From Planctomycetota bacterium (GTDB lineage Bacteria > Planctomycetota > Planctomycetia > Planctomycetales > Planctomycetaceae), in assembly GCA_003388505.1 (NCBI GenBank), contig QQVO01000032.1, forward strand, positions 1 to 64,000: DNA of 64,000 nucleotides. Reading direction: 5' to 3'. The notes under the pieces are model-generated. The model saw only the letters and a program-made list of their open reading frames with translations, had not been told where the DNA came from and ran no database searches. Each line of letters starts with the position of its first letter. Position 1 is the stretch's first letter. The position numbers and the translations under genes were made by a program. Below are positions 27,902 to 64,000 of the stretch, one piece after another.

Positions 27902-28825
27902 ATGCAACTCGGTTTTGTGAGCGCGATTCTTCCGGATCTTTCTCTGGAGGAGGTGCTGCGATTTGCGGCTGAGACGGGTTACGACTGTGTCGAGGTGATG
28001 TGCTGGCCGGTGAGCAAGGCTGAGCGACGCTACGCGGGGGTGACGCACGTTGACGTGACGGAGTTCAGCCAGTCGGACGCCGACCGGATCAATGAGCTTG
28101 CCGAGACGGCCGGGGTCGCGATCAGCGGACTGGGGTATTATCCCAACCCACTCTCTCCCGACGCGGACGAGTCCCGGTTGGCTGTGGAACACATCGGCAA
28201 GGTCATCGCGGCCGCTGCCATGCTGGGCGTCGGCCGGATGAACACGTTCGTGGGGCGCGATTGGACGAAATCGGTGGATGAGAACTGGCCGCGGTTCGCG
28301 GAAACGTGGAAGCCGCTCGTCGAAACAGCCGAGGCCGCGAAGGTCAAAGTCGGCATCGAGAACTGTCCGATGTTGTTTTCCGCAGACGAATGGCCGGGAG
28401 GGAAAAACCTGGCAACGACTCCCGCGATCTGGCGGCGGATGTTCGAGGAGATTCCGAGTCCGTATTTCGGACTCAATTACGATCCGTCGCATATGATCTG
28501 GCTGCACATCGACTACGTCGCCCCGCTGCGGGCATTCGCCGACCGGTTGCATCATCTGCACGCGAAGGACGTGCGGATTGACGTCGACCGGCTGAACGAC
28601 GTCGGCATCATGGCGCATCCCAACGAGTACCATACTCCGAAGATTCCGGGCCTGGGGGACGTCGACTGGGGACGATTTTTCTCTGTGCTGACCGACATCG
28701 GATACGACGGGCCGATCTGCGTCGAAGTGGAAGACCGGGCCTACGAGGGCTCGCTGGAGCTGCGAAAGGCGTCGCTCCGGCAGAGTGCAACCTATCTCCG
28801 CAACTTCCTGCCGCGCGTCGGCTAG
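27902..28825 (+). CDS. Sugar phosphate isomerase/epimerase (xylose-isomerase-like TIM barrel)
   Basis: The 307-residue protein, with a GGAGAAG site before the ATG at 27902, opens [32 protein letters not shown]. Metal-binding residues of the AP-endonuclease-2/xylose-isomerase barrel are visible: Glu in VGIENCPML, Asp and His in [11 protein letters not shown], His in [12 protein letters not shown], and Glu in [10 protein letters not shown]. It probably interconverts a keto sugar and its epimer. It heads the sugar-related run (ROK kinase, deoC, cinA) downstream, after a 156-bp gap holding a dispersed repeat. Confidence 0.9.
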
Positions 28826-28851
28826 AGCAGAGTGCTCTACCACGTGTCCCC

Positions 28852-28926
28852 GTCGAGTGGTTTTCGCCTGTCGAGCCGGTGATTCCGCGAGACAGATCGC
28901 CAACACTGATTTACAACGCGCAATAA
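28852..28926 (+). repeat. Dispersed ~75-bp repeat, copy A
   Basis: A second copy lies at 62977-63051 in the opposite orientation. The 23 bases at 28884-28906 (including GCGAGACAGATCGCCAACAC) are identical to 63018-62996. Flanking identity is partial. It sits between the isomerase and ROK genes. Confidence 0.7.
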
Positions 28927-53769: not shown

Positions 53770-56097
53770 TCACTCTGTCAGTTTGAAATCGACGCGTTCA
53801 ATCGTTCCGGTGAACTCGAACGTGCCTTCATCTTTGTAGGCGGGATCGATCGGAGTGATCGAGTCGCGGCCGACTTCAAATGGTTCCAGGCCGTGGCGGG
53901 GGAGGGTTCGCGTCAGTTTGCCTTCTCCGGCGGGTTTGTCATTCACGAAGAGCTTGAGCGTGCCGCCGCCCTGCTTCGAGCCGTCGGGGGTGAATTCGGC
54001 TTTCAGTTCGACCTCTCCTTCCGGAATCTTGACCGTGCCGGGAATCTCCACATCGGCAATTTCGAACAACTGGTAGCGGTAATGCGGCAAGCCGTCCTTG
54101 ATGTACAGCGTCCATCCGGCGGAGAACGCGCCGGCACAGGTGACGACGCCTTCGGCCCCTTCTTTCGGAATGTGCAGGTTTGCAGTCAGCGTGTGGCCGC
54201 GAGGGAAGAGTTGCGGGCCGATCGGTTCGGGCAACCAGACGTCGTTCCCGTAGTAGGTCCACGAGGTGGGAGGGTCGCCGCCGACGCGGAGTTTGGGATC
54301 GAATCGCTCCGAGAACCTTGGATCGAGCGGGAGAACGTCGTACTTCCGGGCTTCCTCCAGGAAGAGATCCTGAAGCTGCTGCAGTTTGTCCGGATGATCT
54401 TCGGCGAGATTGACGGCTTGCGAAAAATCCTCCTCGATGTTGTAAAGTTCCCAGGGGGCGTCCAGAAAGTCGCCGGTTCGACTGGCGGTGTCCCAGGGTG
54501 TCCCGAAGTGCGAGCAGGCGATCCATCCTTCGTGGTAGATGGCCCGGTTGCAGAACATTTCGAAGTACTGGGTCGTTCGCGTTCCTTCGGCGTCCGCGTC
54601 GTCGAAGGTGTAATTCATGCTCACACCTTCGATCGGTTTCTGCTCGATGCCGTTGACTTCCTCCGGCTCGGGGATCTGACACGCCTCCAAGATGGTCGGC
54701 ACGACGTCAATCACGTGGTGGAACTGAGTGCGCTGCTCTCCCTTCGCTTTGATGCCGTTCGGCCAGTGAATGATCATCGGGTTGCGCGTGCCGCCGAAGT
54801 GGGAGGCGACCTGCTTGGTCCACTGAAACGGACTGTCCATGGCCCAGGCCCAACCGACCGGGACGTGCGGCTCGCTGGTCGGACCGCCGATTTCATCGAT
54901 TCGGTCGATCGTGCTTTCCAGACCGAGTTGGATTCCGAACAGGCTGGCGAGTTCGCTGAACGTCCCTTCCAGGCCGCCCTCGGCGGAAGCGCCGTTGTCG
55001 CCGACGATGTAGAAGATCAGCGTGTTGTCGAGTTCGCCTGAGTCTTCGAGGCTGTCAATCAGCCGACCGACATGGTGATCGGTGTGGGCCATAAACGCGG
55101 CATAGTTCTCCATCAGCCGTTTGTAGACGGTCTTCGCGTCCTCCGGCTGGTCGTCCCAGGCGGGGATCTCCTTCGGCCGCGGTGTGAGTTTGGTGCCTTC
55201 GGGGATGACGCCCATCTCCAGTTGCCGGGCGTGGGTGATCTCGCGCTGCTTGTCCCAGCCGTGGTCGAATTCGCCCTTGTACTCGTCGCGCCACTCCTGT
55301 GGGGCGTGATGCGGGGCGTGGACGGCGCCGGTGCTGAAGTAGCAGAACCACGGCTTGTCGCGGTCGGCGGCGCGGGTGTTGCTGATCCACGCGATCGCCT
55401 CGTCGGTCATGTCCGCAGTGAAGTGATAACCTTCCTCGGGCGTTTTCGGCGGCGGAACCCACGTGGTGTTTCTGTACAGGGTGGGGTAGTACTGGTGCGT
55501 CTCACCTTGGTTGAAGCCGTAGAAGTAGTCGAACCCGAGTCCGGTCGGCCAGCGGTCGAACGGGCCGGCCGGGCTGATGTCGGGTTCCGGCGTGTTGTGC
55601 CACTTCCCGAACATGGACGTCGCGTATCCATTGCATTTCAGCACCTCGGAGACGAGGGCCGTACTTCTCGGGATGATCCCGGTGTAGCCGGGATAGCCGG
55701 TTCCCATCTCGATGATGACACCGGTGCCGACGCTGTGGTGGTTGCGACCGGCGAGCAGCGCGGCCCGCGTGGGGCTGCACAACGCCGTGGTATGAAACCG
55801 CGTGTAGGAAAGCCCGTTGTCTGCCAGTTTCTGCATGTTGGGCGTCGGGACCGGCCCGCCGAACGTGCTGCACATGCCGAATCCGACGTCATCCAGCAGG
55901 ATGATCAGGACATTGGGCGCACCGTCGGGGGCTTTCAGCGGCTGCGGATAGCTGGGTGTCGAGTCCTTGAGAGTCTGTCCGACCTTGCCCTTGAACTCGG
56001 GATCGGGCTGCGGGAGTTGCTCCTGGGCGAAAGCGTGAAGCGACAACATCGAACCGCAAACAATCGCGCAAACGACAACGCGAATCCAATCTTTCAT
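53770..56097 (-). CDS. Secreted arylsulfatase (CSPTR), long form
   Basis: The 775-residue protein has a signal peptide (VVVCAIVCGSMLSLHAFA). The sulfatase core follows: PNVLIILLDDVGFGMCSTFGGPVPTPNMQKLA (metal Asp-Asp), ALCSPTRAALLAGRNHHSVG with formylglycine Cys107, MFGKWHNTPEPDISPAGPFDRWPTGLGFDYFYG, and FYIVGDNGASAEGGLEG (metal Asp-Asn). It is much longer than the CTPSR sulfatase at 34.3 kb, with an extra C-terminal beta-rich domain (VTCAGAFSAGWTLYIKDGLPHYRYQLFEIADV). It is a paralogue of the next gene upstream (56133-58481) and is probably cotranscribed with it. Confidence 0.94.
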   Translation of the reverse strand: MKDWIRVVVCAIVCGSMLSLHAFAQEQLPQPDPEFKGKVGQTLKDSTPSYPQPLKAPDGAPNVLIILLDDVGFGMCSTFGGPVPTPNMQKLADNGLSYTRFHTTALCSPTRAALLAGRNHHSVGTGVIIEMGTGYPGYTGIIPRSTALVSEVLKCNGYATSMFGKWHNTPEPDISPAGPFDRWPTGLGFDYFYGFNQGETHQYYPTLYRNTTWVPPPKTPEEGYHFTADMTDEAIAWISNTRAADRDKPWFCYFSTGAVHAPHHAPQEWRDEYKGEFDHGWDKQREITHARQLEMGVIPEGTKLTPRPKEIPAWDDQPEDAKTVYKRLMENYAAFMAHTDHHVGRLIDSLEDSGELDNTLIFYIVGDNGASAEGGLEGTFSELASLFGIQLGLESTIDRIDEIGGPTSEPHVPVGWAWAMDSPFQWTKQVASHFGGTRNPMIIHWPNGIKAKGEQRTQFHHVIDVVPTILEACQIPEPEEVNGIEQKPIEGVSMNYTFDDADAEGTRTTQYFEMFCNRAIYHEGWIACSHFGTPWDTASRTGDFLDAPWELYNIEEDFSQAVNLAEDHPDKLQQLQDLFLEEARKYDVLPLDPRFSERFDPKLRVGGDPPTSWTYYGNDVWLPEPIGPQLFPRGHTLTANLHIPKEGAEGVVTCAGAFSAGWTLYIKDGLPHYRYQLFEIADVEIPGTVKIPEGEVELKAEFTPDGSKQGGGTLKLFVNDKPAGEGKLTRTLPRHGLEPFEVGRDSITPIDPAYKDEGTFEFTGTIERVDFKLTE

Positions 56098-56132
56098 GTT
56101 GGTTCTCCAGAATGAGAAGGCCGTGTTGTCAA

Positions 56133-58481
56133 CTACTTCAACTCGATCGTTACTGTTTTGAGTCGCCCGGTAAATTTGAACGGCACCTCGAAGTCCTCCG
56201 AGACCGGCGTTCCCGTGTCGAAGCCGGTGTCGAGTGTTTCGTCCAGCGTGACGCGGTTCGGAATGCTTTTCTCGACGCGACCGGAGCCGACCTGTTGATC
56301 GTCGACGTAAAGCGTGACGTCGGCTCCCGCGAAGGGCTTGTCAGCGTCGGACTTGTAGACGACCCTGAGTTTGACGTCGCCGGAGGGGACCGGTTTGTCC
56401 GAAGTGACGGTGTACCGCTCGACGCCCGCCAGGTTGTAGTGATAGACCAGTTTGCCGTCCTTGACGTAGAGGCCGTAGCCGGCAAAGCGACCGCCCTGGG
56501 TGAGCAGCATGCCTTCGGCGCCGTCCTCGGGGATCGTGACGTCGGCGATGATCTCATGGCTTTTGTGCTTGAGGTCGGGGGCGGCGCCCTCGGGCAGGCG
56601 GAGCAGGTTCGGGTACGTGAAGGTCGTGCGTCCTTGCGTGAGGCTGGGTCGGTTGTCGACGTTCAGCCGTTCCGTTTTGCGGCCGTCGAGTGGCAGCACT
56701 TGATACCGGGCGGCCTCGGCAAAAAACAGCTTGACCAGTTCTTCGAGCTTTTCGGGATGCTCTTCTGCCAGGTCATTCGCCTGCGAGAAGTCTTCTTCAA
56801 CGTGGTACAGTTCCCAAGGCATGTTCAGCAGGTCGACCGGGGGAGGCTCACTGACCCACGGTTCGCCACGAATCGCGCTGATCATCCAGCCGTCGTGGTA
56901 CATCCCCTGGTTGCCGAGCATTTCGAAGTATTGCGTCGTGCGACGATCTTCGGCGTCGGCGTCGTCAAAGGTGTAGGCCATGCTGACGCCCTCGATCGGC
57001 TTCTGGGCGATGCCATTGAACTGGCTGGGTGCCTCGATGCCGATCACTTCCAGAATGGTCGGCGCGATGTCGATCACGTGATGGAACTGGTCCCGGATTT
57101 CCCCCTTCGCCTTGATGCGGCTCGGCCAGGAGATCGCCACCCCGTTGCGCGTGCCGCCGAAGTGGCTGGCGATCTGCTTGGTCCACTGGAAGGGCGTGTC
57201 CATCGCGTGCGCCCAGGCGGCGGGGAAGTGGTTGTAGTGCTTGGCGCTGCCGAGCGTGTCGATCGCCTCGAGCTTCATTTCGAGCGGCTCGGGAATTCCG
57301 TTGAAGAAGGTCATTTCGTTGAGCAGACCGTTGAGGCCGCCCTCCGCGCTGGAACCGTTGTCGCCCGCCATGTAGATGACGATGGTGTTGTCGCTTTCCC
57401 CCATGTCGTCAATCGTATCGAGCAGGCGTCCGACCTCATGATCGGTGTGCGCCGTGAACGCGGCGAAGACCTCCATCATCCGCGCGTAGACTTTCTTTTC
57501 GTCTTCCGGCAGCGAGTCCCAGGCTTGCAGCGAGTCGGGCCTGGCCGTCAGCTTCGTATCGGGGGGGATGATGCCCATTTTCTTCTGGCGCTCGAACGTC
57601 TCCTCGCGGTAGACGTCCCAGCCGTCGTCGAACCGGCCTTTGAACTTTTCGATCCATTCTTCCGGAACCTGGTGCGGCGCGTGCGTCGCTCCGGTGGCGA
57701 AATAGACAAAGAAAGGGCGCTGGGGAGCGACCGCCTTGGACGCCCGCATCATGCGGATGGCGTGATCGGCGATGTCGGTGGTGAAGTGATAGGGCGAGCC
57801 GTCTTCGTTGGTTTTGGGCGGCTCGAGCCGCTTCTTGTTTTCGACCAGGGCCGGACTGAACTGGTCGGTGTCTCCGCCGACAAAGCCGTAGAAGTAGTCG
57901 AATCCGAGATCGCCCGCCCAACGGTCGAACGGGCCGACGATGCTGGTTTCCCAGTCAGGGACGTTGTGGTTCTTGCCGAACCAGGCGTTCATGTAGCCGT
58001 ACTCGCGGAGGATTTCCGCGAAGGTCGCGGCCGAACCGGGGATGATGCCTGAGTAGCCCGGAAAGCCGGTTCCGGCTTCGCCGATCACGCCCGAACCGAC
58101 CGAATGATGATTCCGGCCGGTCAGCAGGGCGGCGCGTGTGGGGCTGCAGAGCGCGGTGGTATGGAACCGCGTGTATCTCAGTCCGTTCTCAGCCACGCGA
58201 TCAAGCGCCGGCGTCGGGATCCCGCCGCCGAACGTGCCCATCTGACCGAACCCGCAGTCGTCGATGAGCACCAGCAGAATGTTGGGGGCGTCCTCGATAC
58301 CGAAGTTCTGCGGGATTTTTAACTGCGGCTTGACAGGCGTGGAATCTTTGTACGTCAGGCCGATTTTCCCTTGGAAGGGCGGCTCGGGAGCTGGCAGATT
58401 GGAGCGATTCGGTTCGTCTGCACGCGCGATGGAAACAAAGAGTGCAAGGCCCAACACGGCGGTCAGTGGTCGTCGTAGCAT
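56133..58481 (-). CDS. Secreted arylsulfatase (CSPTR), long form, paralogue
   Basis: From the ATG at 58481 the 782-residue protein starts with a signal peptide (MLRRPLTAVLGLALFVSIARA) and shares the full domain plan of the neighbouring sulfatase: PNILLVLIDDCGFGQMGTFGGGIPTPALDRVA, ALCSPTRAALLTGRNHHSVGSG with Cys112, WFGKNHNVPDWETSIVGPFDRWAGDLGFDYFYG and IYMAGDNGSSAEGGLNG. The C-terminal domain ends LLTQGGRFAGYGLYVKDGKLVYHYNLAGVERY. Two close paralogues in tandem suggest a local duplication and different sulfated substrates. A REP hairpin lies 52 bp upstream of the start. Confidence 0.94.
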   Translation of the reverse strand: MLRRPLTAVLGLALFVSIARADEPNRSNLPAPEPPFQGKIGLTYKDSTPVKPQLKIPQNFGIEDAPNILLVLIDDCGFGQMGTFGGGIPTPALDRVAENGLRYTRFHTTALCSPTRAALLTGRNHHSVGSGVIGEAGTGFPGYSGIIPGSAATFAEILREYGYMNAWFGKNHNVPDWETSIVGPFDRWAGDLGFDYFYGFVGGDTDQFSPALVENKKRLEPPKTNEDGSPYHFTTDIADHAIRMMRASKAVAPQRPFFVYFATGATHAPHQVPEEWIEKFKGRFDDGWDVYREETFERQKKMGIIPPDTKLTARPDSLQAWDSLPEDEKKVYARMMEVFAAFTAHTDHEVGRLLDTIDDMGESDNTIVIYMAGDNGSSAEGGLNGLLNEMTFFNGIPEPLEMKLEAIDTLGSAKHYNHFPAAWAHAMDTPFQWTKQIASHFGGTRNGVAISWPSRIKAKGEIRDQFHHVIDIAPTILEVIGIEAPSQFNGIAQKPIEGVSMAYTFDDADAEDRRTTQYFEMLGNQGMYHDGWMISAIRGEPWVSEPPPVDLLNMPWELYHVEEDFSQANDLAEEHPEKLEELVKLFFAEAARYQVLPLDGRKTERLNVDNRPSLTQGRTTFTYPNLLRLPEGAAPDLKHKSHEIIADVTIPEDGAEGMLLTQGGRFAGYGLYVKDGKLVYHYNLAGVERYTVTSDKPVPSGDVKLRVVYKSDADKPFAGADVTLYVDDQQVGSGRVEKSIPNRVTLDETLDTGFDTGTPVSEDFEVPFKFTGRLKTVTIELK

Positions 58482-58532
58482 GGCGGTTCCTTTCGTAGAC
58501 GGCCTCACATGAGTTGTCTGATTGAAATGATT

Positions 58533-58597
58533 CCGAAGTCTCTCGACTTCGGCTACGGCGCGCGACAACAACGTAGCTGAAGTCGTGAGACTTCAGC
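58533..58597. repeat. REP palindromes (family A), left flank of the RAYT gene
   Basis: Two hairpins: CCGAAGTC-TCTC-GACTTCGG (58533-58552) and a second with arms GCTGAAGTC and GACTTCAGC around a GTGA loop (58576-58597). The first is followed by CTACGGCGCGCG, as is the matching copy at 59287. Confidence 0.85.
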
Positions 58598-58646
58598 CAT
58601 GCTCGACGCGCTTAAATCCATTCGAGTCATTCCGCGCGAACATTCT

Positions 58647-59237
58647 CTATCCTTCTTTCGAGTAGAATCTAACGAGACCGTTCTTCTGAAGTGCCGAGTG
58701 AACCCTCCAAAACACGTCCCAATAGTCGTCCTGCCAGAGATCCAGGTTGGGATATCCGGGAACGAGACATCCGGTATACGCGTACTCGCGGAAACAGTCG
58801 CGAGCAACGAGTCCGGCCCTCTCGGGATTACGGGCGATGTACTCGACAACGCTCTCGAAGGCAGTTCGCTCACGCTCCTCATCATGGAGTACGTGGTCGT
58901 ACGGCTGTTGCTGAAACTGCGCACCGAATTGCTCCAGAGTCGGATTGAGTTGGGACCGGAAAAACTTGACAGCATTCCGCTGATCGCTTCCGTTCAGGAT
59001 TCCGATGTAAAGCAGGTGGATGTGGTCAGGCATGCAGCAATAGATGGGACAGCACAGTCCGTAACGGAACAGCGTGTGGGTCAACACCTCGCGAAATCGG
59101 CAGTAGAACCTTGGAACAAGCCAGCCGGTTTTCCGCCCGTCCATGGTCATCGACCAGTGGACGTATGCCTGCCCGCGATAGGATTCGGGCGGAAGACGCC
59201 GCAGATAATCTCGCGGCTTCCGACGAATCGAATTCAT
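58647..59237 (-). CDS. REP-associated tyrosine transposase (RAYT, TnpA-REP family)
   Basis: The 196-residue protein has the HUH-type Y1 transposase motifs. The His-hydrophobic-His site is CCMPDHIHLLYIG, with His72 and His74. The catalytic Tyr is in VVEYIARNPERAGLV (Tyr133). The upstream residues YRGQAYVHWSMTMDGRKTGWLV match the usual YF-H-VT-R type start of RAYT proteins in modified form. RAYTs cut and join single-stranded DNA at REP hairpins and are domesticated relatives of IS200/IS605 transposases. It sits between two sulfatases in the same direction and is flanked by hairpins of one family at 58533-58597 and 59287-59388. Confidence 0.92.
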   Translation of the reverse strand: MNSIRRKPRDYLRRLPPESYRGQAYVHWSMTMDGRKTGWLVPRFYCRFREVLTHTLFRYGLCCPIYCCMPDHIHLLYIGILNGSDQRNAVKFFRSQLNPTLEQFGAQFQQQPYDHVLHDEERERTAFESVVEYIARNPERAGLVARDCFREYAYTGCLVPGYPNLDLWQDDYWDVFWRVHSALQKNGLVRFYSKEG

Positions 59238-59286
59238 TGTTCGAATCCTCCCTTACTCGCGGATTCGTTGTCAGGGATGCTTCGTT

Positions 59287-59388
59287 CCGAAGTCTCACGA
59301 CTTCGGCTACGGCGCGCGAATCCGGCGACGTCTCACGGCGTCATGGTAGCTGAAGTCGTGAGACTTGAGCACAGGGCCGAAGTCTCAC
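59287..59388. repeat. REP palindromes (family A), right flank of the RAYT gene
   Basis: CCGAAGTC-TCAC-GACTTCGG lies at 59287-59306, followed by CTACGGCGCGCG. A second hairpin with GTAGCTGAAGTCGTGAGACTT lies at 59347-59367, and a partial third copy of CCGAAGTCTCAC at 59377-59388. The same two-hairpin plan is at the left flank. Confidence 0.85.
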
Positions 59389-59408
59389 GCAGCTCAAGAA
59401 ATTCAAGA

Positions 59409-59426
59409 GCGGCGACGAGTCGCCGC
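59409..59426. repeat. REP-like palindrome, family B copy 3
   Basis: GCGGCGAC-GA-GTCGCCGC, followed by GCTTTGAGG. It belongs to the same palindrome family as 53622-53639 and 53742-53759. Confidence 0.65.
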
Positions 59427-59438
59427 GCTTTGAGGGGA

Positions 59439-61043
<1,605 letters not shown>

Positions 61044-61120
61044 CGTGGTGTCCTTTTTTCTCTTGAGGATCAGAGTACGTGTCGCCCGCATCGTCGTTGT
61101 AGGCGCTCTCCGGGCGCCTG

Positions 61121-62161
61121 CTACTCACCGTCCGCGAAGATTGCGTTCCAATCGTCCTTCATATCCACAACGGTCCAGCCGCGTGCTGTTGCCTCTTCGA
61201 GCGCTTTGTCGAGGCGGCCGATGTGCGAGTCGCGATCGTAGGCGTATTCCCGCTCTGCATCGGTGTGATGGACGAGGAGGCCGAATCGTGGCCCGTCTCC
61301 CGCGGTGGTCCATTGCAGCATCTGCAGGTCGCCGTCCGAGTTGCCGAACGCCATCACCGGGCGGCGGCCGATGTGCAGGTTGATGTTGATCGGCTTGCCC
61401 TCCTTGTCGTCGATGCTGCCGACCTCCGGCAGCTTGACCAGCACCGGCTCACCATTTCTCATTTCGTACCGGGTCTTCACGCTGCTGCCAATCACCTGTT
61501 CAGGAGGAATGCCGTAGACGTCTTCGGCGAAGACGCGGAGGAATTCAATCCCACCACCGGAGACGATGTAGGTCTTGAAATCATTGGCGCGGAGGTACTC
61601 AAGGAGTTCGAGCATCGGCTGGTAGGTGAGTTCGGTGTACGGCCGGTCGTAGACCGGATGCCGGGCGGTTTTCAGCCAGTCCTGGACGACGGCGGCGAAC
61701 TCGTCGGTCGTGATTCCGGCGTGCGTGGCGGCCACGATCGCGGCCGCGTCATGTTCGGTCAGTTTCGCGAGCGCCTCCTTGTCGTCGGCGAGAATCGCGG
61801 CGAACGGCTGCTGCTCCCGCCATTCCGGATGGTCCTCGGCCAGCGCCTTCACACGATCGAGGGCGAAAAACAACTGGAAGTAGAGCGGCTGCTCACACCA
61901 GAGGCAGCCGTCGTTGTCGAAGACGGCGATCCGCTCCGCGACCGGGACGAAATCTGCGCTCCCCTCCGTCGTGACGCGCATGACGAAATCGACGATCGCC
62001 TGCCGGGGGCCGGTGTCGTTCCAGGAGGGGAGGGAGGGAGGCTCCTTGCACCGGTCCTGCGCTTCCGCGTCGACTGTACCAAGAATGGCGGCTAGTACGA
62101 CGGCCAGACCCAGGGTCCGGCTTCGCAAACTGAACGAGCAGGCGTAAGGTCGTGTGTTCAT
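61121..62161 (-). CDS. Secreted HAD-superfamily phosphatase
   Basis: The 346-residue protein has a signal peptide (SRTLGLAVVLAAILGTVDAEA). The HAD motifs are VFDNDGCLWCEQPLYFQLFFALD (nucleophile in DNDG), TYIVSGGGIEFLRVFAEDVYG (motif II Ser), the lysine-bearing KPININLHIGRRP segment, and MAFGNSDGDLQML (motif IV). The Asp-Asn-Asp-Gly variant of motif I and the secretion signal point to an acid-phosphatase-like enzyme acting in the periplasm. It is the first gene of the sulfatase unit, and may remove phosphate from a sulfated glycan or its product (inference). Confidence 0.9.
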   Translation of the reverse strand: MNTRPYACSFSLRSRTLGLAVVLAAILGTVDAEAQDRCKEPPSLPSWNDTGPRQAIVDFVMRVTTEGSADFVPVAERIAVFDNDGCLWCEQPLYFQLFFALDRVKALAEDHPEWREQQPFAAILADDKEALAKLTEHDAAAIVAATHAGITTDEFAAVVQDWLKTARHPVYDRPYTELTYQPMLELLEYLRANDFKTYIVSGGGIEFLRVFAEDVYGIPPEQVIGSSVKTRYEMRNGEPVLVKLPEVGSIDDKEGKPININLHIGRRPVMAFGNSDGDLQMLQWTTAGDGPRFGLLVHHTDAEREYAYDRDSHIGRLDKALEEATARGWTVVDMKDDWNAIFADGE

Positions 62162-62235: not shown

Positions 62236-62793
62236 TCAACCGGCTGCCGACGCCTGGGACATTCGGTTGAAGCTGCGAATGGTTACCGACAGGAGAACGA
62301 GCGCAAGTCCCGTGGACAAGAGGTCCACGCCGACGAGAACCCCAACCGCCCAGAGCCCGGAGAGCGGCCACTGCATCCAGATCAGGAGGCCCAGAATTAA
62401 TCCCAGCGCGCCGCTGACCAGCATCGCCAGCCAACCGCTTGCAGGACGGAACGAAAAGGAAGCGACAATCTTCCAGAATCCGACAACCACGAAAAAGATC
62501 GCCAGCACCAGAGCAAGTATCGAAAGTCCCAGAAAGGGATGCGCCAGCACTGCACCGCCGGCCAATGACGTGAGAAAACCCATGATAAGAGGGACGACTC
62601 TTTCCGTCCAACCCTCCGAGCGGAGACCGTTGACGACCTGCAGCGCGCCGGCAATCAGCAGCAGCCCGCCGATAACGTACACCACGGCTGTTCCCGCAAT
62701 CGCCGGCGACGCGATCGCCAGCCCGCCGGCAACGGCGAGGATCACCCCCATCAACAGAAGACGACTGGCGCCGGGCAGCTTCGCGTCGGTCAT
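62236..62793 (-). CDS. HdeD-family membrane protein
   Basis: From the ATG at 62793 the 185-residue protein has six transmembrane segments in three helical-pair repeats: LLLMGVILAVAGGLAIASP, TAVVYVIGGLLLIAGALQVVNGL, VVPLIMGFLTSLAGGAVLAHPFLGLSILALVLAIFFVVVGFWKIVAS, WLAMLVSGALGLILGLLIWMQWPLSGLWAVGVLVGVDLLSTGLALVLLS. The repeated G-x-x-x-G and WPLSGLWAVG-VGVDLLSTG are the HdeD (DUF308) signature. In E. coli HdeD supports acid resistance; the role here is unproven. Confidence 0.92.
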   Translation of the reverse strand: MTDAKLPGASRLLLMGVILAVAGGLAIASPAIAGTAVVYVIGGLLLIAGALQVVNGLRSEGWTERVVPLIMGFLTSLAGGAVLAHPFLGLSILALVLAIFFVVVGFWKIVASFSFRPASGWLAMLVSGALGLILGLLIWMQWPLSGLWAVGVLVGVDLLSTGLALVLLSVTIRSFNRMSQASAAG

Positions 62794-63358
62794 CACTCCG
62801 CTTTCGTAGTCGAAGAAGCTCTGGCGAGATACACCTGTACATCGGCGGGACAGTAGAACGGACCGCCAGCCGCGCTGCTGAATCCGCAAACGGACCGGAC
62901 CCGCTCGCGGAAGAGTACAAGCGGCGGATCACGATCGATGTCGCCGTTTTTCCGAAACAGTTCGTGCCAGACGTCTTATAGCGCTTTGAAAATCGGTGTT
63001 GGCGATCTGTCTCGCGGATTCTCGTCCTCGACAGTCCAAACACCGCTCGACTCGGACACATGGTCGAGCAATTTGCTCTAAGTGGCGGCCAGGACGACTG
63101 GGAAAAAATCGCGAAGTTGGTTGGCCGCCGGTTCCGCGGCCTCCGGACCGGGCGGCGTGACAGATGGACGGGGGTTCTAGCACTTCTGTGCGCCGCTTTT
63201 CAAGAGGCCGGAATCTTCAGAATTCGTGAAAACCGAAGCCGACTCCTGCGGCAGTTGCCTGGAGTGCAGAGCGTTCAACAAGCGTGAAGGGGATCGTTGA
63301 GTCGGCGGCGACGGCGAGACGCCTTGGCGGACTTCACAGACGCCGTCACCGCTTAGAG
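62794..63358. other. 565-bp intergenic region with a dispersed repeat
   Basis: No gene is supported. The only recognised element is the second copy of the ~75-bp repeat (62977-63051, minus). No UBact or Pup-like small gene was seen. Near 63308-63354 GC-rich complementary stretches are possible but there is no poly-T run. Confidence 0.5.
62977..63051 (-). repeat. Dispersed ~75-bp repeat, copy B
   Basis: Reverse-oriented partner of 28852-28926, with an identical 23-base core at 62996-63018. It lies between the HdeD and Pup-ligase-like genes. Confidence 0.7.
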
Positions 63359-64000
63359 TCAACTGGATGCGGTCCGGCGCCGAGCGCGGCGGAGAGTCTC
63401 CTGAAGTTCGGCCAATGTAGGCGTCGATCCTTCACCCAATTCTGGTTGCGGTCGCGGTTCCGACCACTCGTCGTATTGATCTGCGAAGGGATCGTCGATT
63501 CGCATCGTGCGCCGCTGCTCGCGATCCGCGACGGATGACCAGTCAACAAGGAATTGTTCCTGTCCTGCATGCTCCTTGATGAATCGCGCCCTGGCGGTGG
63601 CCCGCGTACCGGTCTCGGGAACGAATGGCTCCGGCTCTTCACCCGGCAGCACGACTGGGCCGACCCGGTGATCCAGCAGTCCTTCCGATTCCAGCATCGT
63701 GAAGACCGACTCGGGGTCGGAAAAATCGTGATAGCTGTGATCCAGCAGCGCCAGTTCATTGAACAACGACGCGTCGCGCGGCAGGTTGCTCCAGGACGAA
63801 TCCGCATCGTGCAGCACGGCCGAGTAGTACTCGTACTTGGCAAACGCATCAAGCCGGGCGGACAGCCAGTCGCGATCGAGCCGCTCCATGGCCGAGAGTG
63901 TCTCCTCCCAGTCGTGCAATGCTTCTCGCATCCAGGAGGGAGACTCATCGAGGGAGTCGACGTAACGGTGTGCGGCGTCGAGATAGACGCGCTGAGTCGG
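63359..64000 (-). CDS. Pup ligase/deamidase family (PafA/Dop-like), C-terminal part, cut by window edge
   Basis: The minus-strand frame is open from the right edge to a stop at 63359, 213 codons. The first in-window residues, QRVYLDAAHRYVDSLDESPSWMREALHDWEETLSAMERLDRDWLSARLDAFAKYEYYSAVLHD, fit the end of the carboxylate-amine ligase domain of PafA/Dop (RRWEEVLDALE...LADRLDWVAKL). The rest, LDHSYHDFSDPESVFTMLESEGLLDHRVG and TRATARARFIKEHAG...VDWSSV, matches the small C-terminal domain (LQYSD..YDRL and TRAYFRG...ASWDSV). These enzymes attach or process Pup or UBact. The N-terminus and any tag gene are off-window, so ligase versus deamidase cannot be told. Confidence 0.8.
   Translation of the reverse strand, partial: PTQRVYLDAAHRYVDSLDESPSWMREALHDWEETLSAMERLDRDWLSARLDAFAKYEYYSAVLHDADSSWSNLPRDASLFNELALLDHSYHDFSDPESVFTMLESEGLLDHRVGPVVLPGEEPEPFVPETGTRATARARFIKEHAGQEQFLVDWSSVADREQRRTMRIDDPFADQYDEWSEPRPQPELGEGSTPTLAELQETLRRARRRTASS

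Follow-up and report, generated by a model that had tools for sequence, protein, structure and literature searches.

Two complete and chemically unrelated protein-tagging pathways, one of ubiquitin type and one of Pup type, are probably encoded together with a common unfoldase in a single planctomycete operon. Only the end of this operon lies within the stretch of DNA analysed here (the window, 64,000 nucleotides, equal to positions 1-64000 of contig C21), which it enters at the right edge. The content and order of its genes, the conserved catalytic residues, the C-termini of the tags and the absence of a 20S proteasome are established by the sequence. Tagging of the ubiquitin type and of the Pup type is the usual illustration of convergence in separate organisms, and the presence of both systems, complete, in one conserved operon makes it testable whether the two chemistries operate as one code. 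In the same way, genomes free of the 20S particle make the role of a Pup-like tag without a proteasome testable, and the compact set of ten genes is amenable to study in a laboratory strain.

The terminal gene and its operon

An open reading frame of 213 codons (642 bases) occupies positions 63359-64000 of the window on the minus strand and remains open through the right edge. It matches the Pfam profile PF03136 (Pup_ligase) over profile positions 299-440 of 441, with E=1.9e-14 and a score of 53.9 bits (cut-off 25), which is far beyond chance. The contig is 126.8 kb long (126,806 bp) and runs on rightward, and its coordinates, used below with the prefix C21, continue the numbering of the window. 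The complete gene (C21:63359-64831) encodes a protein of 490 aa that matches PF03136 at E=8e-38, bearing out the initial annotation of the fragment as a PafA/Dop-type enzyme in a planctomycete (home genome G000, 6.78 Mb, 98.8% complete). A second PF03136 gene is located on the same contig (C21:65183-66775, E about 2e-40), and the two whole genes score 131 and 140 bits against the cut-off of 25. In the PafA-like protein, E13, E15, E66, E71, R203 and H205 are invariant among 10 homologues and D61 is found in nine of them. The catalytic and the ATP/metal residues are thus retained, and the loss of the latter, which the initial annotation had named as speaking against such an enzyme, is not seen in the full gene with its conserved Asp and Glu.

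The gene is the last of ten on the same (minus) strand (C21:63359-73846). In transcription order they encode an FHA/RING-like protein, an E1, an E2, a TY-chaperone (TY-Chap; C21:70462-71436), a ubiquitin-like protein (Ubl), a JAB/JAMM protease, an Mpa/ARC-like AAA ATPase, a Dop-like enzyme, a small tag and the PafA-like ligase; everything except the C-terminal 213 codons of the ligase lies beyond the window edge. The intergenic gaps range from -4 to 295 bp and a Shine-Dalgarno-like stretch precedes most genes, and the cluster is predicted as a likely single transcript. An upstream Ser/Thr kinase gene (C21:74815-77592) was considered as a further member and excluded because a related genome, G015 (Planctomycetaceae bacterium OFTM22), carries a different gene at that place.

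Elsewhere in the window, three neighbouring arylsulfatase-like genes (53770-61091, minus strand) are adjoined by genes for a HAD hydrolase (61121-62161) and a DUF308 membrane protein (62236-62889). A sharply bounded hairpin repeat of about 100 bp is found at 62995-63085, with at least 39 other copies in the genome at 91-98% identity; the copy at 28823-28906 is 82% identical. An ORF of 196 aa (58647-59237, minus strand) with a PDHIHLL motif has the look of a REP-associated (Y1/HUH) transposase. It has no Pfam match at a threshold of 0.05, and may be what mobilises the dispersed repeat.

Components of the two probable tagging pathways

Comparison of the full enzymes with PafA and Dop, as the initial annotation had proposed, separates the two PF03136 genes. 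The last gene is matched best by the NCBIfam model for PafA (TIGR03686, 8.9e-29, vs 9.7e-21 for Dop), and the earlier one by that for Dop (TIGR03688, 1.8e-30, vs 3.5e-19 for PafA). The scores of 100 bits for the last gene and 106 bits for the earlier one lie far under the respective equivalog cut-offs of 551 and 492 bits, and the proteins are therefore divergent relatives. Against solved structures, the Dop-group profile matches Dop at 2.6e-81 and PafA at 1.9e-51. Proteins of this group, in which E11, D76 and E81 (alignment numbering) are invariant, carry an insert with a conserved D and R at the position of the Dop-loop, and the alignment of the PafA group has no insert there. The PafA-group profile, which takes in more distant homologues, matches Dop (3e-66) slightly ahead of PafA (5e-60) in the PDB, so that the ligase role leans on the NCBIfam models, the missing Dop-loop and the adjoining tag.

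The tag gene (C21:64917-65120) lies between the genes for Dop and PafA, 85 bp upstream of the latter, and encodes 67 aa ending in SGQ. An ORF of 64-73 aa with a GQ or GE end is present in the Dop-PafA gap of all seven hybrid loci, that is, those combining both halves; of the 581 ORFs 40-100 aa long across these loci, only 5 have such an ending. The tag of genome G147 ends in FLEYVMQKGGE, which we take to resemble the end of Pup. The tags tested have no relevant match among the Pfam and NCBIfam tag families. A Pup/UBact tag has been defined as a protein of 50-90 aa with a C-terminal G-[EQ] and a gene beside PafA (PMC2588565), and the home tag agrees with this definition in its length, its Gly-Gln C-terminus and its position. 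In G015 the gap holds two diverged tandem tag genes (L028 1724-1918 and 2013-2213), as if two tags were served by one ligase.

The ATPase (C21:67071-68822) is covered by one unbroken profile match (1e-80), which spans the coiled-coil, OB and AAA regions and pairs its residues 41-531 with residues 50-560 of ARC/Mpa, and its best NCBIfam model is pup_AAA. Its C-termini (LKLHTA, LKVHSA, VRAESA, RYVSAA, RFLRTA) are brief motifs related to one another, with Ala as the last residue in most loci. Neither an HbYX nor a GQYL docking motif is present at the C-terminus in any of the loci compared. The ATPase is without any known tail for docking onto a protease, and it has no linked protease. The initial annotation had looked beyond the edge for a tag gene, an Arc/Mpa ATPase and a proteasome alpha/beta pair. 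The tag and the ATPase were found, together with a Dop partner; the proteasome pair is absent from locus and genome alike. The sole PF00227 gene of the home genome is HslV by sequence, G015 likewise has HslV only, and PF00227 searches of the other five of the seven hybrid genomes (G117, G283, G111, G114 and G146) gave no member, archaeal genomes serving as a control that did give matches. Degradation by a 20S particle is therefore not available, unless its genes are missing from seven assemblies simultaneously.

In the ubiquitin-type half, the E1 (C21:72086-73219) exceeds the PF00899 cut-off; its profile finds MoeB at 7e-23, with UBA5, Cap2 and BubCD as further matches, and the invariant C181 is its putative catalytic cysteine. 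The E2 (C21:71433-72053, 206 aa) has no match in Pfam. Its HPN motif and a Cys nine residues downstream are kept in all six loci aligned, and a comparison of its profile with the PDB finds E2 structures of eukaryotes at 2.8e-4, with the HPN and the Cys aligned. A single-sequence AF2 model (pLDDT 37) is too poor for use, leaving the profile match as the one backing for a UBC fold.

The JAB protease (C21:68949-69983) has an E...HxH...SxxD signature and three Cys that are invariant in six loci, and its orthologues in G114 and G146 exceed the PF14464 cut-off. The Ubl (C21:70111-70389) contains AG near its C-terminus in all loci compared. In G015 and G117 it ends in ...SAG, and elsewhere a tail follows the AG (AKSALH in the home protein, after ...SAG; GRRSALS in G114, AGGEAR in G111, ARGPQD in G146), as would be expected of a precursor trimmed by the JAB protease. 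When the G015 orthologue was modelled with AF2 from its sequence alone (pLDDT 65), a Foldseek search of the PDB with this model returned mainly ubiquitin, at E values of 0.03-0.5 (best 0.034; SAMP1 0.33), and these weak matches, together with the gene context, are suggestive of a beta-grasp, ubiquitin-like protein. Five Cys are invariant in the FHA/RING-like protein (C21:73274-73846), of which an orthologue matches PF14446 at 2e-4, under the cut-off; for the home genome this is suggestive of a RING-like domain.

Distribution and alternative readings

PF03136 genes occur in 8 of 99 close relatives and, mostly as single genes, in 37 of 392 genomes across the phylum. The hybrid cluster is present in the home genome and six further planctomycete genomes, which together represent five families (f1, f28, f22, f25 and f33). 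The home gene order is repeated in G015 (L028/L036) and G117, and also in G283, where a break within the ATPase gene divides it between two contigs (L055, L038). G111, G114 and G146 have more divergent versions, with the chaperone gene as the least certain member. E2 matches below 1e-40 are confined to six of the 392 phylum genomes, all with Dop and PafA, and weaker ones lie in E1/Ubl/JAB/RING operons without PafA. For eight genes in the seven genomes, pairwise distances correlate at r 0.84-0.99, a mirroring that fits co-inheritance and equally plain vertical descent.

Two genomes separate the halves. In G134, the ATPase, Dop, tag and PafA genes have no E1 or E2 in the upstream stretch, and the Pup half can therefore stand alone. 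In G390 (L057 259-9839), genes for the RING-like protein, E1, E2, a chaperone-like protein, Ubl, JAB and the AAA ATPase follow one another as in the hybrids, and after the ATPase a small possible Ubl, a JAB (PF09436) and an E1 replace Dop, tag and PafA. By gene content, the second cassette seems exchangeable between lineages.

A scan of genome contigs with PafA matched only the G015 record. In G013 (L029 824-1045 and 9095-10492) and G327 (L039 248-439, 14612-14782 and 14840-16258), PafA-like genes with 30-36% identity to that of the window stand alone, with no Dop, E1 or E2 nearby. They are accompanied by small ORFs ending in GGE or SGE and by large paralogous proteins, of which one carries WD40 repeats, and are possibly a PafA-only, conflict-type system. 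Single-copy PF03136 genes also stand beside small ORFs ending in HGGE in G007 (L030 11995-12261), G010 (L031 9897-10049) and G049 (L032 7585-7773), and probably represent the known membrane-type planctomycete pupylation.

With Dop, PafA, a tag and an Mpa-like ATPase all in place, the locus could be an ordinary Pup/UBact-proteasome locus with its core-particle genes elsewhere in the genome. This is very improbable, as a genome 98.8% complete holds HslV only, five hybrid genomes are without PF00227, and a full E1/E2/Ubl/JAB set shares the operon. The plain UBact-proteasome reading is contradicted and was dropped because 20S genes are absent; the E1, E2, RING-like, Ubl and JAB genes, moreover, mean that this is not a plain Pup/UBact locus. 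The initial idea of a Pup-type tagging locus in a planctomycete thus holds for the enzyme, the tag and the ATPase, but has to be given up in its plain form, since ubiquitin-type genes, which it had not anticipated, belong to the same operon. It is equally hard to believe that two independent operons became neighbours by chance, even though the Pup half occurs alone in G134 and many planctomycetes carry E1/E2/Ubl/JAB sets without PafA: seven genomes from five families keep the order, the genes lie on one strand with gaps of -4 to 295 bp, and in G390 the block from RING to AAA is found again, with Dop-tag-PafA exchanged for a second Ubl/JAB/E1 set. Chance was rejected because of the conserved order, the small gaps and the mirrored distances, although the last would also follow from vertical descent.

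The main rival is an antiviral or conflict system, in which Ubl and Pup tags would inactivate or mark invader proteins, comparable to the Bil, CBASS type II and Bub operons. In bacteria, operons with E1, E2 and JAB genes frequently serve in defence, the spread of this one is patchy (strong E2 matches in 6 of 392 genomes), and its E1 has weak matches to PADLOC E1-E2 models. Related Ubl systems have also been classed among conflict systems by Kaur et al. (2020; PMC7159879). A defence role is nevertheless rather unlikely, because PADLOC matches are limited to generic AAA, E1 and kinase models, the operon has no effector or toxin gene, and an order kept in distant families points to a stable role in the cell. 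Least credible is a RiPP-like product, for which the PafA-like and E1 enzymes would modify the peptide of the small ORF and no protein would be tagged. Natural-product loci do contain ThiF-like and GS-fold ligases alongside small peptides, but the E2 with its HPN and Cys, the JAMM protease, the RING-like protein, the Mpa-like ATPase and the Dop/PafA pair are parts of protein tagging, the tag ends in GQ or GE as Pup does, and the operon has no transporter gene.

A two-tag model and its relation to known systems

In the favoured model of two pathways with a common unfoldase, whose biochemical steps, sharing of the ATPase and fate of targets we infer from the genes, the JAB protease would trim the Ubl to its C-terminal Gly, the E1 would adenylate it and the E2 would accept it as a thioester on Cys145, with the RING-like protein aiding its transfer onto targets. 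In parallel, Dop would deamidate the C-terminal Gln of the tag to Glu, and PafA would use ATP to join the tag to target lysines, from which Dop could take it off again. The hexameric Mpa/ARC-like ATPase may then take targets with either or both tags and unfold or disassemble them, while JAB, in the manner of Rpn11, and Dop, as untagging enzymes, would recover the tags. As there is no 20S particle, the outcome would be unfolding or disassembly per se, or passing of the target to an unlinked protease. A more specific version, put forward tentatively and given somewhat less than even weight, is that Ubl-like and Pup-like tags are placed on the same targets and feed a single proteasome-free unfoldase, with an exchangeable second cassette. 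The tags might then be added in sequence, for example, or one tag on the other.

The actinobacterial Pup-proteasome system (Pup, PafA, Dop, Mpa/ARC and 20S) shares with this locus the Dop and PafA pair, the GQ/GE tag and the coil-OB-AAA ATPase. The planctomycete locus differs in having no 20S particle, no GQYL tail on the ATPase and a tag outside the Pfam and NCBIfam families, and in its additional E1, E2, Ubl, JAB and RING-like genes. The UBact systems of Gram-negative bacteria likewise combine a Pup-like tag with PafA/Dop outside the actinobacteria. For UBact loci, proteasome genes are reported; the locus described here has none. The ubiquitin-type half has the same enzyme set as the prokaryotic E1/E2/Ubl/JAB/RING operons (Iyer, 2006; PMC1779556), and related E2/E1/Ubl/JAB operons are present in other planctomycetes; unlike the hybrids, the PafA-free planctomycete operons have in most cases no Mpa-like ATPase, and in none of them does the stretch compared contain Dop, tag or PafA. 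The membrane-type pupylation of planctomycetes such as Rhodopirellula (Iyer, 2008; PMC2588565) resembles the locus in its PF03136 enzyme, its GE-ending tag and the lack of a proteasome nearby, but has a single enzyme, an HGGE tag end and no E1, E2 or JAB seen nearby.

A survey of PafA/Dop evolution (PMC7947786) describes, for some Planctomycetes, a PafA/Dop homologue present as a single copy, and the available part of its text makes no mention of a Ubl-Pup operon. The coupling of Ubl-conjugation with Pup-conjugation is treated in a single sentence, for Thermofonsia and Planctomycete lineages, in the main text of Kaur et al. (2020, eLife; PMC7159879), and no other paper joining the two systems was found in the literature searched. 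The present locus fits that sentence, which in the main text comes without a gene list, a tag sequence, a Dop/PafA split or the proteasome status. The link to target degradation suggested there meets a locus without 20S genes, which argues against a simple degradation reading of the coupling. The pairing has thus been noticed before, yet as far as found it has not been described, although the work of Burroughs (2011) on prokaryotic RING fingers is a likely source of an earlier account. The anatomy of the operon, its tags and the absence of 20S genes appear to be new.
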